Translations under genes and position numbers: made by a program
Shown here: piece by piece, positions 6,524 to 13,567 of the stretch
Position numbering within the stretch: the stretch's first letter is position 1
Layout: each line of letters begins with the position of its first letter
Notes under the pieces: model-generated
Told to the model about the DNA's origin: nothing
Databases searched by the model: none
The model's input: only the letters and a program-made list of their open reading frames with translations
NCBI GenBank assembly: GCA_016872215.1
Contig: VHAX01000012.1
Span: 1-53,436 of the forward strand
DNA from: Sphingomonadales bacterium
Lineage (GTDB): Bacteria > Bacteroidota > Bacteroidia > UBA7662
Length of the DNA: 53,436 bases
Direction of reading: 5' to 3'

Positions 6524-7978
6524 TTATGCATCTAATGGTGTTGAAACAGCTCGGTGGGGATGGAGTATGGCCGCCATTCTCAAAAGTTGGCCTTCTTCCC
6601 AGGGCCTGCCCATCAACTGTATGCCCAGCGGCAATCGCTCCCTGTTAAGCGCAAAAGGAACGGAAACGGCGGGGAAGCCGTTCAAATTGGCCAATACGGT
6701 AAACATGTCCTCCTTGTACATTTGCAGCGGGTCGTCCGATTTCTCGCCAAAACGAAAAGCAGCCCCCGTGGTGGTGGGCAACAGCAGTGCGTCGGCGCCC
6801 TCCAGAAGCGCATAGGATTTGTCACGCAGCAAGCGCCGTACCTTTTGGCCCTTGCTATAATACGCGTCGTAATATGCCTCACTGAGCACAAAAGTGCCCA
6901 GCATAATTCGCCGGCGCACCTCCTTGCCGAAGGCTTCCGTACGCGATTTTTTGTAGGTCTCCTCGAGGGTGGTGGCATCCGGATTTCGGTAGCCGTAATG
7001 GACACCGCTGTAGCGCGACAAATTCGAGCTGGCTTCGGCGGTAGCCAATATATAATAGGTGGGGATACTGTATTTGAGTTCGGGTAGGCTCCGGGTGATG
7101 ATTTGATGGCCCTCTGCTTTTAACCGCACCAATAGATTTTGGTAGGCCTCAAACATCTGTGGATCGAGTCCGCCCGAATCTTCCAGATCCTCCAACACCA
7201 CCAGTTTGAGTCGGCCGTTGCCTTTTGGCTCCGTCGGCATTCGGCATTCGGAGGCAGGGCGTCGACTACAAGTACCGTCGTAGTCGTCGGCCCCTGCCAT
7301 TATTTCGGTGAGCAGGGCTGCATCCTCCAGACTGTGGGTGATCGGACCAATCTGATCGAAAGACGAACCAAAAGCGATCAATCCGTGTCTCGAAATCCGG
7401 CCGTAAGTCGGTTTGAGTCCCACCACCCCACAATAGGCAGAGGGTTGACGAATCGATCCGCCAGTATCGCTGCCCAGAGCGGCGTGACAAAACCCAGCGG
7501 CTACGGCGGCTGCCGAACCACCCGACGAGCCTCCCGGAACCCGCTGTGAGTCGAGGGGGTTCAGAACCGGACCAAAGGCAGAGTTTTCGTTGGAGGAGCC
7601 CATGGCAAACTCATCGCAATTCACCCGACCTATGAAAATGGCTCCGGCATCGAAAAGTCGCTGTGTAGCCGTGGCAGAAAAAAGCGATTCAAAACCCTCC
7701 AGTATTTTCGATGAGGCACTAAATCGATGACCTTTGTAGGCGATGTTGTCCTTTAATGCCATCACCATCCCGCTCAGAGGATACCAGCGCCCCGCAACAT
7801 GCTCTGCATCCAACCAGGCAGCCCGCTCTATGGCCTCCTCGTCATAAACCTCCAAGAAAGCATTGATTTCAGGACGTTCCCTGATTCGCTTCAAAAAGGC
7901 CTGCACCATGTCAACACAGCACAACTCATCCGCCTTCAGCGCGCGTTGAAGGTCCGACAATTGGTGATAGGCGCTCAA
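6524..7978 (-). CDS. gatA: Asp/Glu-tRNA amidotransferase subunit A
   Basis: GatA is the glutaminase-amidase subunit of GatCAB, which converts misacylated Glu-tRNA(Gln) (and/or Asp-tRNA(Asn)) to the amide form. The amidase signature is intact: ALKDNIAYKG with Lys76, RVPGGSSGGSAAAVAAG with cis-Ser151, and GSDTGGSIRQPSAYCG with nucleophile Ser175. These keep the spacing of characterised GatA proteins. LKPTYGRISRHGL and SFDQIGPIT follow. At 484 residues the length is normal. The start overlaps the tatA stop by 4 bases. gatB and gatC are not in the window. Confidence 0.95.
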   Translation of the reverse strand: MSAYHQLSDLQRALKADELCCVDMVQAFLKRIRERPEINAFLEVYDEEAIERAAWLDAEHVAGRWYPLSGMVMALKDNIAYKGHRFSASSKILEGFESLFSATATQRLFDAGAIFIGRVNCDEFAMGSSNENSAFGPVLNPLDSQRVPGGSSGGSAAAVAAGFCHAALGSDTGGSIRQPSAYCGVVGLKPTYGRISRHGLIAFGSSFDQIGPITHSLEDAALLTEIMAGADDYDGTCSRRPASECRMPTEPKGNGRLKLVVLEDLEDSGGLDPQMFEAYQNLLVRLKAEGHQIITRSLPELKYSIPTYYILATAEASSNLSRYSGVHYGYRNPDATTLEETYKKSRTEAFGKEVRRRIMLGTFVLSEAYYDAYYSKGQKVRRLLRDKSYALLEGADALLLPTTTGAAFRFGEKSDDPLQMYKEDMFTVLANLNGFPAVSVPFALNRERLPLGIQLMGRPWEEGQLLRMAAILHPHRAVSTPLDA

Positions 7979-8196
7979 GGGCGACGCTCTTTGGGATCGT
8001 CGGGCGTGGTGTGCATGCCCTCTTCAATCTCGCGGCGCACTCCCGATGAGGCATCTTTAAACTCCCTGATGCCCTTCCCCAGACCCCTGGCCAGTTCGGG
8101 GATTCGTTTGGCACCGAAAAATATAAGAATCACTGAAAGGATCAGAATGAGCTCCGTCCCACCAATATTTCCGAGCAGTAAAAACATAGGGTTCAT
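7975..8196 (-). CDS. tatA: Twin-arginine translocase subunit TatA/TatE
   Basis: This 73-residue protein has the TatA layout: a short N-terminus, one transmembrane helix (about 12-27), the hinge FFGAKRIPELARGLGKGIREF with the conserved Phe-Gly, an amphipathic helix, and a charged tail ending in KERRP. TatA assembles around TatBC to move folded proteins across the inner membrane. The gene is translationally coupled to gatA (4-base overlap) and heads the run down to aroE. A good -7 element lies at 8217-8224. Confidence 0.92.
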   Translation of the reverse strand: MNPMFLLLGNIGGTELILILSVILIFFGAKRIPELARGLGKGIREFKDASSGVRREIEEGMHTTPDDPKERRP

Positions 8197-8224: not shown

Positions 8225-8234
8225 CGATATTTAT

Positions 8235-8294
8235 GGGCCATTTTTGAAATAATCTCTCACGCACGTGGGCTATTGTTGAAATAATCTGTCACGC
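8235..8294. repeat. 28-bp direct repeat between the divergent tatA and AGMO-like genes
   Basis: Copies at 8235-8262 and 8267-8294 match at 25 of 28 positions and share the core TTGAAATAATCT. The second copy ends 2 bases before the ATG at 8297, and the first abuts the tatA promoter. This could be a paired operator for the divergent genes or just a local tandem duplication. Confidence 0.7.
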
Positions 8295-8296
8295 TT

Positions 8297-9454
8297 ATGA
8301 GTCTCAATCCGATAGTGCTCTCCATCCCCGTTTTTTTCATCCTCATCGGAATAGAAGTGGCGTGGGACCGCTTCCGCAAGGGGGGCGTTTACCGCCTGGC
8401 AGACGCCCTCACCAACATCAGTTGTGGGGTCACAGAACAGGTATTCGGTGTGTTCTCAAAGGTGGTGAGCGTGGCCCTCTATTACTGGGTCTATGAGTAT
8501 TTTCGCCTCACCACCCTTCCCATCAAAGGGTGGACCCTTCTCGGGCTCTTCCTGCTGGTCGACTTCTGCTACTACTGGGCGCACCGCTGGAGCCACGAGG
8601 TGAACCTCTTATGGGCTGGCCACGTGGTGCACCACCAGAGCGAACACTATAATCTATCGGTCGCCCTTCGTCAGGGGGCATTACACAAAATATTCACCGC
8701 CGCCGTATATGCTCCTCTCGCCCTTCTGGGCTTCAACCCCTATTGGTTCTTGTTGTTGATGGCCTACAATACCCTTTACCAATTTTGGATTCATACGCAG
8801 TACATTGGCAAAATGGGATGGCTCGAATACGTATTCAACACGCCCTCCCACCATCGGGTGCACCACGGTCGCAATCCGGAGTATATCGATAAGAACCACG
8901 CGGGCGTTTTGATTATTTGGGACAAGCTCTTCGGTACTTTCGAGCCTGAACGTGCCCCGGTCGTTTATGGCATCACCACGCCTATCAATTCCTGGAATCC
9001 GGTCTATGCTCAGGTGGCTCACTTCGGTACGATCGGGAAGGACCTGACGTCCGCCCGCGGATGGCGTGAGGTCGTTCGTGTGCTCTTCGGCCGTCCTGGT
9101 TGGCATCCGGAAGGGAATAAGATGATGAGCCAAACGGGTCATGGGGGGCACTGCACAGACCAAATTGTCGTTGGTTCCACCCAGTCGCGCTCACTGGTCG
9201 ATCAAGTAGTGGTGGGCACGGGGCTGAATGTGTATGTGCTCGCTCAGCATTTGCTTTTGCTCGGGGTGACCACCTTTTTTCTGTTTAGACATGAGCAAAC
9301 GAGCGTGAATGAAAAGGGTATGCTTGCCCTTTGGATTTTCGTAACCTCCGCCACTCTGGGGATGCTGCTCGAAAAGCAGGCATCTGCACGCATTTGGGAG
9401 ATTTTTCGCTTGATTTTGACGATTATGGGCATAATTTATTTAATGTTTATATGA
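8297..9454 (+). CDS. Alkylglycerol monooxygenase-like fatty acid hydroxylase
   Basis: This 385-residue membrane di-iron hydroxylase has the eight-His set: HRWSH (96-100), HVVHH (109-113), His166 in QFWIHT, and HHRVHH (185-190). Beyond the generic superfamily motifs, EHYNLSVALRQ, LYQFWIHT, NTPSHHRVHHGRN and DKNHAGVLIIWDKLFGTF match animal alkylglycerol monooxygenase (AGMO/TMEM195) closely. AGMO hydroxylates the ether-bound carbon of alkylglycerols so that the ether falls apart. Several hydrophobic segments flank the His motifs and continue to the C-terminus. The last bases overlap the next gene in an ATGA junction. The superfamily is certain; an ether-lipid substrate is inferred. A sterol or carotenoid hydroxylase is the alternative. 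Confidence 0.85.
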   Translation: MSLNPIVLSIPVFFILIGIEVAWDRFRKGGVYRLADALTNISCGVTEQVFGVFSKVVSVALYYWVYEYFRLTTLPIKGWTLLGLFLLVDFCYYWAHRWSHEVNLLWAGHVVHHQSEHYNLSVALRQGALHKIFTAAVYAPLALLGFNPYWFLLLMAYNTLYQFWIHTQYIGKMGWLEYVFNTPSHHRVHHGRNPEYIDKNHAGVLIIWDKLFGTFEPERAPVVYGITTPINSWNPVYAQVAHFGTIGKDLTSARGWREVVRVLFGRPGWHPEGNKMMSQTGHGGHCTDQIVVGSTQSRSLVDQVVVGTGLNVYVLAQHLLLLGVTTFFLFRHEQTSVNEKGMLALWIFVTSATLGMLLEKQASARIWEIFRLILTIMGIIYLMFI

Positions 9455-10191
9455 ATATGATGACTCCAAAAAAGGAAGCGAGTGTTTCGGATTATTGGAG
9501 CTATGCCTTCATGGGCTTCCTGCATTTGGTGTTCCTGCGGTTCCTCCCAGGGCAATGGGTGCCCCTCAGCAAGGTGATGCTGATGCCGCTGCTGATCCTT
9601 GCAGTTTACCGCCAAACGACGGCCGGGGAGCGACAAACATCAGGGGTTCGGATCCTTATCGGGGCATTGTTTTTGTCGGGCCTTGGCGATACGCTCCTGA
9701 TTGGGAAAGATGAAGGTTATTTTGTGGGTGGACTCACCGCATTCCTTTGCGCAAACCTATTGTATATTGTTTTGTTTGTGAAAGCACACAGGAGGCATTC
9801 TGGAGGGGTTGCTTCGACATGGATCGACCAAAGGGCATGGCCGGCCGTGCTGATTCCCCTTTCACTGTTGTATGTGTTGTATTCTGGATTGGGTGAACTG
9901 ATCCTACCCGTGGTGGTTTACATGGCGGTGATCACCCTGATGTGGCTACTGGCATTGTCGAACTATATCCGGAAAAGGAATACGCATTCCGGCGGCGAGG
10001 GATGGGGATCGGCCACTCTTCTTGCCCTGGGCGCTACTTTGTTTGTGGCCTCCGATGCCACCCTGGCCTGCGATAAGTTCATGGCACCCTTCCCCGGGGC
10101 GCAACTCACTGTCATGGGCACCTATATATTGGCGCAATTGGCGATGGTTAGGGGGTTCCTGGGGGTCGCAGAACTCAGAAATCAAAATTGA
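9451..10191 (+). CDS. Lysoplasmalogenase-family membrane protein (YhhN/TMEM86)
   Basis: This 246-residue protein has about eight transmembrane segments. Family hallmarks are PLSKVMLMPLLIL, the acidic LSGLGDTLLIG, GGLTAFLCANLLYIVLF, and late LFVASDATLACDKF with TYILAQLAMVRG. TMEM86B hydrolyses the vinyl-ether bond of lysoplasmalogens; most bacterial YhhN members are untested. I place the start at ATG 9451, where it overlaps the preceding stop (TGA 9452-9454). An upstream in-frame ATG would lie deep in the AGMO-like gene. The 3' end overlaps the end of the convergent outer-membrane protein gene by 17 bases. Confidence 0.82.
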   Translation: MNMMTPKKEASVSDYWSYAFMGFLHLVFLRFLPGQWVPLSKVMLMPLLILAVYRQTTAGERQTSGVRILIGALFLSGLGDTLLIGKDEGYFVGGLTAFLCANLLYIVLFVKAHRRHSGGVASTWIDQRAWPAVLIPLSLLYVLYSGLGELILPVVVYMAVITLMWLLALSNYIRKRNTHSGGEGWGSATLLALGATLFVASDATLACDKFMAPFPGAQLTVMGTYILAQLAMVRGFLGVAELRNQN

Positions 10192-13100
10192 GCGAGAAAT
10201 GCCACAAGCGGCGCAGACGCTGCCCATCGTCGATGCCCTGTGCGCGATCAATGCGTAGGTAGTAACCCAACACCCGCATTCTCACACCGTAACCATAGCC
10301 CATCAGGATGGGGTCGCGACTGGTGATGACCTTTACCCGCACCGGGCCGTTTTCATAAAATCGTACATTTAAAGGGTTCTCTTCGGCGAATGGGTTTACG
10401 CCACTCCAGGACGTGCCCATATCGAAGAAAGAGATGACGGAAAAGTTCCTCCAAAATTCTGATGCCACCGGTGTGCGCGAAAGGACCTGCACGATGGGAC
10501 ACCGGATCTCGGTGTTGAATAGGGCTAGGTTGGATCCATTCCGGCTGTTTTGCCAGAACCCTCGCATGGGTGCTGCCAGGGCCTCATAGGCATACGAAAC
10601 ATTGGCCGGCGGCGGAAGAAGATTGTCGCGCTTTGGAAGCAGCCAATTCTCCACACCCCCCAGCAAAAAGAGGGTTTTTTGTCCACCCAAACCTGCCGCC
10701 AAATGCGTACGGCCCGTCCAGATCATGTTTTTGTAGAGGCGTATGTATCGCCGGTAGTCGAGCTGCAATAAGTTCATCGATGCGTCTCGGGGTGACAACA
10801 AAGCATAGGATTCGAGCGACAATTTCCAGCGGGTTCCGCTCAACAGGTTGGGACCCAGATCGCGTGTGTTGTCATAAACAAACTCGGCCTTGAGGGCAGC
10901 CAGATGGTTCAAAATACCCTGACGATAAATGCTGTATAGGTCGGTAGAAAGCGGCAAGAGACGTTCCGTACGGTACATGCCCGATACGCGCAGACTGGAG
11001 TAGCGGTGAAAGGGAAAGGAAAACTGACTCAAACCCTCGAGCACATTACGGCGGTAAGCGGTGGGACCAAAAACCGTGATAGGGTCGCCCTCATAGGTGG
11101 AACGCCCCTGCACCAGCATGAACTTACGGTCGATTCGCTTCTTGAGCGACTCATACATCACGAAATACTGGTTGCCACTCGAACCTCCTGCCATCATGGC
11201 ACCAGCACTGATGCGGTAATCTTCTAAGAGGTCGGAGGCGCTGCCTTTGAAAATGAAACCACCACCCAAACCCTGCAGGTTGCTAATGGTTGAGATGGTG
11301 AACGAGGGCATATCGGGCTGAAACAGCGTGTTGCCTGCCTGCGACACCATAAACTCAATGCCCATAGCGGGCACGTAAGGCTGAATCCTCCTCTGTTTAT
11401 TGCGCTCCGCTCGCTCCAACGGGTCTTCCTTCATCGCAAATTCAGGCTCCTGAATGAAAATATACGGAGGAAGGCTGTCGCCCCCCGACCCTTCAACCTC
11501 GAGCAGCGGATAACGAGCAGGCGGAAGATATCTATAGGCCGAGGCTGAGTCGCCCGTGGCATCGAGATGGGCCGTGGCTCCAAACTGACGGTTGTCGATG
11601 AGTCCCGACCCCTGCAAACCCACCGCAGGGTTTTGTCCGAATACCCGATTCGACGGCCTACTCTGGGTAGCCAAAGCACTAGGTACGGGTAGGCCACTTG
11701 CATATCCCCCCCGCTCTGCGCGTAACCGAGTGGGGGGCGCTGGGGTTGGGTTCAAATCCGCTTGAGTTGGCTCAAGAAGTTGTATATTGACTACACTGCC
11801 TGTACGCGGGCTCTGGATTTCATCCATACAAAAGTTGCCGGGCAGTCCTGAGTGCAGGCGTACGATCGGATCGGGGGCGCGTCCACAATCTAATAATGTA
11901 AGGGAGGGTATGACCTTTGCGAAACCTACGAGATCTTGGTTATCGGTTGAATCTGTGAAATTTGTTTTTTTTGTGGTATCCGCAAAAAAATCTATACGGG
12001 CTAGGTGACGCGAAGGAATACCAGATGCATCGGAAAGAAAAACAAATCGTTCGCTGTCGATTCGTCGGGGTGACAGCTCTGAGACGCCAATGGAGCGCGT
12101 AAGGTTCACCATGGTGTCGATGCGGAGCTCCCTCACCATGGCTGCAAACAGATCGGGATGTAGATTTGGATTGAGGGAATCTCCGCAGGGCACGGCAGAA
12201 AAGAGCAGCCATTCATTGGTGAGGAACCGGGGCGACAACTCATCGCAGAGGTCGAGGGTGAGCGGCTGAAAAGTGCGTGATTTTGGGAAAAAGGCCATCA
12301 GGTCATTTTGCCCATTTTTTCGGGCCGACAAAACCAGATATCGCCCGGATGGGTGCATATCGAGGCCGTTGATCTGGTCCACCCCGGTCAACAGTATGTC
12401 CATAAGTTCTCTCTCCCCCGAGGCCTTCCAACTCAGCTGTCCATATCGAATCCGCCCCTTTACCTCATAGAAATAATGCAGCAACTCGGTGCCGGGCTGC
12501 CAGGCAAACAAGGGCTCCGCTGCACCGGGTGGTGAGGCCTGCCACTTCACCCCGCTGCACTGCTTAAACAGGATTCTACCGGTGCTCACCTCTTCAACCG
12601 TTAGCCGGCGCTCCCCGTTTTTCTGTTCCATGCGTGCCAGTAACCGGCCCTTGGGGTGCATGGCCAAACCCATTGTTTCAGCACGGCGCCAAAGCGGACG
12701 AAGGATGCTATCGACCTTGGGTGCTAGTCGACCCGAGTCGTCTTGCGCAAATCGATCCGTATAATAGTTCAACCAGTCCTTGCCGATGGCCTTCATCTTG
12801 GTCCCTGTCACATAGGCCATTCCACTGCGGAAATCACGGTTCACCCGTGTCAGGTAGAGGGCGTTGGAGAGCGAAGATGCCCCATACCGCTCAGTAATAT
12901 AGTGCCAAAAACTCACCCCGGCGAGTTCCGGGTCGCAGTTGATGAGTTGACTAAACCGACGGATGCCACCCACCTTCAATTGCTGCCTGAGGCGGTTGTC
13001 GCGCTCGAAATTCCAACCCGATTGGATGTAGGCGAGAAGGCCCTGTTCATACCAATCGGGCAAATAAATCAGGGCAGAATTTTGTACCCGCTCGGTGAGT

Positions 13101-13567
13101 CTGCCCCCGTAGAGCATCTCTTCTATCAGCACCCGCGCCACCCCGCGGCGCAGCTCCTCATGAAATTTCTCGCGCTCCTGGTGGTAGTAGACCACAACCT
13201 TATTGCCCCCCAACCGGGTCAGACCCCCACGATTATATTGGTCGAGGTCGAATCCCAAATTTGATTGCTTGAGGTCGTTGTGGGTTTGGTAGACAATGAC
13301 CTGGTAGGGGTCGTCGGAATGGTAGCCGAGCAACTCCTCCATCTCACGGATTTGTTCGGGCACTATGGCCAGGGTATAACGGCCCAGTTCATCGGCTTCC
13401 ATGTGGAAATAGACCTGAACGTTGTCCTTTTCCAGCATCGACCATTCATAAAACTTGAACTGGATGCGGTTTTTGCCGAAATAGGTCTGGGAGGCCTGGC
13501 TTTGTCCGGCCACACGCGCCGTGCTGCAGGCGAGGAGCAGAAGGATAATCAGGCGGTCGACCGGCAT
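10175..13567 (-). CDS. Large outer-membrane protein: peptidase-MA-like domain, propeller, C-terminal barrel
   Basis: This 1130-residue exported protein has a signal peptide ending around GQSQA (residues 1-25). Residues 45-290 resemble a peptidase-MA/gluzincin domain: QVIVYQTHNDLKQSN, then LPDWYEQGLLAYI (169-181). Where the zinc motif HExxH belongs it has GVARVLIEEM (142-151), so catalysis is doubtful. Residues 290-640 look like a TolB/WD40-type propeller (GLAMHPKGRLLARM, DMHPSGRYLVLSARKNGQNDL). The last 350 or so residues are alternating strands ending in MGYGYGVRMRVLGYYLRIDR and a terminal Phe, as in Omp85-type barrels. It is the last gene after porU-porV and the MBL-fold gene. Function is unknown; an envelope assembly or export role is a guess. 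Confidence 0.7.
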   Translation of the reverse strand: MPVDRLIILLLLACSTARVAGQSQASQTYFGKNRIQFKFYEWSMLEKDNVQVYFHMEADELGRYTLAIVPEQIREMEELLGYHSDDPYQVIVYQTHNDLKQSNLGFDLDQYNRGGLTRLGGNKVVVYYHQEREKFHEELRRGVARVLIEEMLYGGRLTERVQNSALIYLPDWYEQGLLAYIQSGWNFERDNRLRQQLKVGGIRRFSQLINCDPELAGVSFWHYITERYGASSLSNALYLTRVNRDFRSGMAYVTGTKMKAIGKDWLNYYTDRFAQDDSGRLAPKVDSILRPLWRRAETMGLAMHPKGRLLARMEQKNGERRLTVEEVSTGRILFKQCSGVKWQASPPGAAEPLFAWQPGTELLHYFYEVKGRIRYGQLSWKASGERELMDILLTGVDQINGLDMHPSGRYLVLSARKNGQNDLMAFFPKSRTFQPLTLDLCDELSPRFLTNEWLLFSAVPCGDSLNPNLHPDLFAAMVRELRIDTMVNLTRSIGVSELSPRRIDSERFVFLSDASGIPSRHLARIDFFADTTKKTNFTDSTDNQDLVGFAKVIPSLTLLDCGRAPDPIVRLHSGLPGNFCMDEIQSPRTGSVVNIQLLEPTQADLNPTPAPPTRLRAERGGYASGLPVPSALATQSRPSNRVFGQNPAVGLQGSGLIDNRQFGATAHLDATGDSASAYRYLPPARYPLLEVEGSGGDSLPPYIFIQEPEFAMKEDPLERAERNKQRRIQPYVPAMGIEFMVSQAGNTLFQPDMPSFTISTISNLQGLGGGFIFKGSASDLLEDYRISAGAMMAGGSSGNQYFVMYESLKKRIDRKFMLVQGRSTYEGDPITVFGPTAYRRNVLEGLSQFSFPFHRYSSLRVSGMYRTERLLPLSTDLYSIYRQGILNHLAALKAEFVYDNTRDLGPNLLSGTRWKLSLESYALLSPRDASMNLLQLDYRRYIRLYKNMIWTGRTHLAAGLGGQKTLFLLGGVENWLLPKRDNLLPPPANVSYAYEALAAPMRGFWQNSRNGSNLALFNTEIRCPIVQVLSRTPVASEFWRNFSVISFFDMGTSWSGVNPFAEENPLNVRFYENGPVRVKVITSRDPILMGYGYGVRMRVLGYYLRIDRAQGIDDGQRLRRLWHFSLNFDF

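Follow-up and report, generated by a model that had tools for sequence, protein, structure and literature searches.

Recurrent pairing of alkylglycerol monooxygenase-like and YhhN-family genes in Bacteroidota suggests a bacterial module for ether-lipid breakdown

Two adjacent genes on contig C12 of a Bacteroidota genome (2.09 Mb, 99% complete) encode homologues of alkylglycerol monooxygenase (AGMO) and of the YhhN/TMEM86 lysoplasmalogenases, and a comparison of their sequences and genomic settings suggests that they probably form a two-enzyme membrane module for aerobic ether-lipid breakdown. The 53,436-nt stretch of this contig that was analysed is referred to here as the window. Both proteins retain nearly all residues regarded as catalytic in their animal counterparts, and the two genes are linked repeatedly across Bacteroidota. 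The pair consists of:

8297..9454, + strand: AGMO-like membrane di-iron monooxygenase, 385 aa (FA_hydroxylase, PF04116, 101 bits)
9451..10191, + strand: YhhN/TMEM86-family lysoplasmalogenase homologue, 246 aa (PF07947), start possibly at 9460

Similarity of the first protein to animal AGMO was assessed against a human sequence of 445 residues, which was trusted for this purpose because it agrees with the published enzyme in length and at each of the 15 reported residue positions. With human AGMO the window protein shares 40% identity across 374 aa (E 4e-83), with the C-terminal part covered, and the three motifs that a sequence-only reading of the locus had quoted as likeness beyond the His boxes (YNLSVALRQ among them) are present. 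The other two FA_hydroxylase proteins of the same genome gave no match to human AGMO at 1e-3. Residues essential in the human enzyme comprise nine histidines together with Q162, D233, N235, Y236, W243 and D244 (PMC7911779). By spacing and alignment, 14 of these 15 are kept in the window protein, the histidines as H96, H100, H109, H112, H113, H166, H186, H189 and H190 and five of the remaining six as Q126, D198, N200, W208 and D209; the sixth, Y236, corresponds to H201. Thirteen of the 14 kept positions, all nine His included, are invariant across 44 homologues, and W243 is found in 39 of the 44. The Y236 column of the same set holds His in 34, Tyr in eight, Phe in one and Leu in one. His is present at this position in all 20 members whose genes are paired with YhhN, and each of the ten proteins with another residue comes from an unpaired gene, a pattern uncorrected for kinship.

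The AGMO C-terminal domain, PF24858, scores 19.5 bits in the window protein (residues 310-376) against a cut-off of 28.3; it lies above the cut-off in the relatives L046 (36.8 bits) and L085 (33.9 bits), and reaches E≤0.01 in 22 of the 44 homologues. The phylogeny that the sequence-only reading had proposed as a check bore out its assignment: in a tree of 69 proteins, built by quick search and with a long human branch, human AGMO and the window protein fall within a long bacterial AGMO-type clade (94 by the Shimodaira-Hasegawa-like approximate likelihood ratio test, SH-aLRT), and the short paralogues and distant FA_hydroxylase proteins lie outside it. The structural model of the AGMO-like protein is confident (predicted local distance difference test score, pLDDT, 90; predicted template modelling score, pTM, 0.88). 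A fold search of this model against the PDB gave no match at E≤0.001 and is uninformative.

Membership of the second protein in the YhhN/TMEM86 family, also claimed beforehand, is clear from its PF07947 score of 130.8 bits (cut-off 25.6). Eight catalytic residues have been proposed for TMEM86A/B: K43, G81, D82, H104, G182, S189, D190 and Y213 (PMC11994398). The window protein keeps seven of them as K41, G79, D80, G194, S201, D202 and Y225 and has N102 at the H104 position. Across 26 YhhN proteins, almost all of which are neighbours of AGMO, no variation is seen at K41, G79, D80, S201, D202 or Y225, and the H104 position varies; mutation of H104 in TMEM86A leaves more than 10% of activity (PMC11994398). 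The AlphaFold model of the window protein shows eight long helices (eight predicted transmembrane helices; pLDDT 91). Purification of the Legionella and M. tuberculosis YhhN proteins has shown them to be lysoplasmalogenases (PMC9052158).

Recurrence of the pair was surveyed in 296 Bacteroidota genomes, with an AGMO match called above 370 bits and strong matches counted for YhhN. Full-length AGMO was found in 44 genomes from 27 genera. YhhN is present in 33 of these 44 versus 20 of the 252 others (Fisher 1e-20), and counted by genus the AGMO/YhhN table reads 19/8/12/101 (p=1e-9). YhhN directly follows AGMO on the same strand in 15 of the 44, where chance would give about 0.02. These 15 genomes belong to five genera in the sample and ten of them to a single genus, g11, so the effective number of adjacency cases is smaller than 15. 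Among 80 named loci, YhhN lies 100 bp or less downstream of AGMO in 26 and within 1.5 kb in one (L067), always on the same strand. A recurrent neighbourhood, which the sequence-only reading had asked for, is therefore strongly in evidence in Bacteroidota (27 of the 80 loci).

Clustering of neighbouring genes, whose names are readings of their sequences unless a family search is named, showed that YhhN stays beside AGMO while both flanks differ between loci. In L043, L052 and L060, adenine deaminase or UvrA-like genes lie upstream and an aldehyde dehydrogenase (ALDH) gene downstream. In many Pedobacter loci the pair sits between an upstream gene for an RNA-binding protein and a downstream penicillin-binding-protein-like gene, and Flavobacteriales-type and Cytophagales-type loci have other flanks around the pair. 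By contrast, in a Cyclobacteriaceae-type group the surroundings of AGMO are conserved and YhhN is not among them. Presence of the pair changes at least 6 times on the AGMO tree, and two AGMO subfamilies that are about 33% identical (the window type and the L115/L118 type) each have YhhN downstream. No pairing was seen among the few loci from outside Bacteroidota (L073, L085, L093), and an apparent 881-aa 'fusion' in L073 proved to be a spurious in-frame 5′ extension.

Other gene arrangements were also observed. On one strand of L067 (5980-9496), AGMO is followed by a second AGMO-like gene, a small lipoprotein-like open reading frame (ORF) and YhhN. L146 (2701-4343, genome G230) has the reverse order, with YhhN immediately upstream of a short AGMO-like paralogue on the same strand. 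Tandem full-length AGMO genes occur, YhhN-less, in L036 and L047.

Both animal AGMO and lysoplasmalogenase give off fatty aldehydes (PMC9131029; PMC9052158), making a fatty aldehyde dehydrogenase the expected next step. In L043, L052 and L060 the third gene, on the same strand as the pair, encodes a class 3 type ALDH of 466-485 aa; among solved structures it is closest to 6k0z, to 4qgk (a fatty aldehyde dehydrogenase, matched at 2e-116) and to class 3 ALDH. Together with the recurrent pairing in Bacteroidota, the dehydrogenase behind the pair in these three loci supports the shared pathway that had been suggested from the linkage of the two genes. An ALDH3 homologue is found in 46 of 51 AGMO genomes, a wide presence that is compatible with such a pathway rather than diagnostic of it; in the window genome it lies on another contig (G000:C1:141532-142881), unlinked to AGMO.

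We infer the reactions, their order and a shared aldehyde pool as follows. In alkylglycerols or lyso-alkyl-phospholipids, the AGMO-like protein would hydroxylate the carbon adjoining the ether oxygen, and collapse of the resulting hemiacetal would release a fatty aldehyde together with a glycerol product. Hydrolysis of the vinyl-ether bond of lysoplasmalogens by the YhhN protein would likewise yield a fatty aldehyde, here with a glycerophospho-base. Both enzymes, working side by side on sister substrates, would supply the same aldehyde pool, to be oxidised by an ALDH3-type fatty aldehyde dehydrogenase.

As to where the ether lipids come from, scavenging from exogenous sources is favoured by default, since the plasmalogen desaturase gene and PcrB are absent here and no endogenous source is evident; endogenous ether lipids may also be made by unrecognised enzymes. 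Plasmalogen desaturase (PF10520) was considered as an endogenous source of vinyl ethers and set aside, being over the cut-off in only 1 of the 296 genomes. The PcrB/geranylgeranylglyceryl phosphate (GGGP) synthase, absent from the window genome, was likewise rejected as a universal endogenous source. One Bacteroidota genome, G178, carries AGMO, YhhN and a PF10520 plasmalogen-desaturase homologue (C1, C32, C38).

The window genome encodes pterin-4a-carbinolamine dehydratase (PCD); of its two PTPS genes, one lies next to a folE-like ORF and a short-chain dehydrogenase/reductase (SDR) gene. Since PCD, PTPS and folE-like genes are present, a tetrahydropterin cofactor is plausible in this organism. 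PTPS and folE serve queuosine and folate synthesis too. The grouping of PTPS, folE-like and SDR genes beside a photolyase-like gene (L159 3836-5716, G000:C10) is a possible tetrahydropterin locus. PCD was tried as a positive co-marker of dependence on tetrahydrobiopterin (BH4) and rejected, as it is not associated with pairing and is rarer in paired genomes: it occurs in 29 of 29 unpaired versus 6 of 15 paired AGMO genomes, a difference that comes mostly from one or two genera. The paired genomes that lack it are G045, G077, G100, G158, G194, G226, G242, G265 and G305. Because paired proteins carry His at Y236 and PCD is often missing, a different pterin or reductant may be used. Among the matches listed for the surveyed genomes, none to PCD, PcrB or ALDH3 lay within 10 kb of AGMO. 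A more specific proposal, namely a dedicated aerobic ether-lipid operon of alkyl-ether monooxygenase, lysoplasmalogenase and fatty aldehyde dehydrogenase in Bacteroidota, with a His-variant AGMO site that perhaps works without an animal-type BH4/PCD cycle, is tentative.

Besides the two genes of the pair, the locus contains the following features:

6524-7978, − strand: gatA-type amidase, left of the pair and divergent from it
7979-8196, − strand: TatA-like ORF, left of the pair and divergent from it
9451..9454, + strand: ATGA, in which the AGMO stop overlaps the earliest candidate start of YhhN; relatives do not conserve it
10175-13567, − strand: Omp85-like gene, right of the pair and converging on it

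Translational coupling of the two genes had been claimed from the ATGA. That junction is real, but the start of YhhN is ambiguous (9451, 9457 or 9460), and same-genus relatives start their protein (MTP/MTK) at the position equivalent to 9460, with intergenic distances of 12 to about 97 bp; with spacing so variable, the case for coupling is weak. The tight co-directional layout of AGMO and YhhN is conserved and ATGA-type coupling is not. Directly 5′ of the AGMO start, a 29-nt direct repeat (8234-8262 and 8266-8294, 32-bp spacing, 90% identical) was observed, which is present as a single copy in three same-genus relatives.

Several observations weigh against ether-lipid breakdown as the role of the pair. 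His201 occupies the position of a residue, Y236, that is reported as essential in human AGMO. The BH4-recycling PCD is missing from 9 of the 15 paired genomes, making animal-type BH4 dependence doubtful in some of them, and, given the rarity of PF10520, synthesis of the YhhN substrate is not known from these organisms. L043, L052 and L060 form one small clade to which ALDH3 adjacency is confined, so that this adjacency counts once. In addition, an AGMO-like enzyme of Pseudoalteromonas, PRUB680, acts on prodigiosin, a non-ether substrate (PMC7484904), and homology alone therefore does not fix the substrate. This precedent, the replacement of Y236 by His in every paired protein sampled, the missing PCD and the absence of plasmalogen desaturase would also fit joint action on something other than classical ether phospholipids, with the AGMO-like enzyme oxidising another bacterial lipid or secondary metabolite and YhhN cleaving a matching enol-ether or related product. 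We regard this as unlikely, since similarity to AGMO extends over the full length, C-terminal part included, Q126, D198, N200, W208 and D209 are conserved, the YhhN catalytic set is intact, ALDH3 adjoins the pair in three loci, and clustering of the neighbours in the named loci revealed no recurrent biosynthetic genes near it.

The two enzymes might instead work independently in membrane hygiene or in the detoxification of host- or environment-derived lysolipids, their adjacency reflecting co-regulation without a joint pathway. The YhhN protein of M. tuberculosis does protect against toxic lysolipids (PMC9052158), the genes lie apart in 18 of 33 genomes that have both, and 11 of the 44 AGMO genomes have no YhhN. 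Adjacency and co-occurrence far above chance, in multiple independent gene contexts, make this improbable. That the genes are chance neighbours, kept together by general synteny in one lineage, is hardly credible: the entire gatA-AGMO-YhhN-Omp85 block is indeed syntenic within the window's own family, but YhhN keeps its place in Pedobacter, Flavobacteriales, Cytophagales-type and other loci whose flanking genes are different, and with the changes counted on the tree this distribution already contradicts it. A joint module for ether-lipid breakdown thus stays our preferred explanation.

Compared with animal AGMO (AGMO/TMEM195, EC 1.14.16.5), the window protein has about 40% identity, the nine His, five of the six other essential residues and the C-terminal membrane region in common; it differs in having His at Y236 and a C-terminal domain below the Pfam cut-off, and its gene is linked to YhhN, a linkage that to our knowledge is not known for the animal AGMO gene. 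With human TMEM86A/B, Legionella Lpg1991 and M. tuberculosis Rv1401, the second protein shares PF07947, eight transmembrane helices (in the model) and the Lys/Gly-Asp/Ser-Asp/Tyr set; unlike TMEM86A, it has Asn at the H104 position and an AGMO-like gene as partner. ALDH3A2-type fatty aldehyde dehydrogenase is resembled by the third gene of L043, L052 and L060, whereas the window genome has its homologue on a separate contig. PRUB680 of Pseudoalteromonas rubra, an alkylglycerol monooxygenase-like oxidase that cyclises prodigiosin to cycloprodigiosin (PMC7484904), is AGMO-like by literature description; its substrate sets it apart.

No paper in the literature searched links AGMO with YhhN genes in bacteria or describes such a module. 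Known enzyme families thus appear in a new, recurrent bacterial partnership, the function of which we infer. AGMO has been treated as the sole enzyme for cleavage of alkyl-ether glycerolipids (PMC7911779). Its instability is such that efforts to reproduce its purification failed, and no solved relative was found. With about 40% identity to AGMO and a genetic tie to a lysoplasmalogenase, a bacterial homologue would offer a tractable protein for work on structure and mechanism. If the proposed role is correct, the pair would represent a route by which bacteria consume ether lipids from animals, protists and other microbes, and would serve as a genomic marker of that route.
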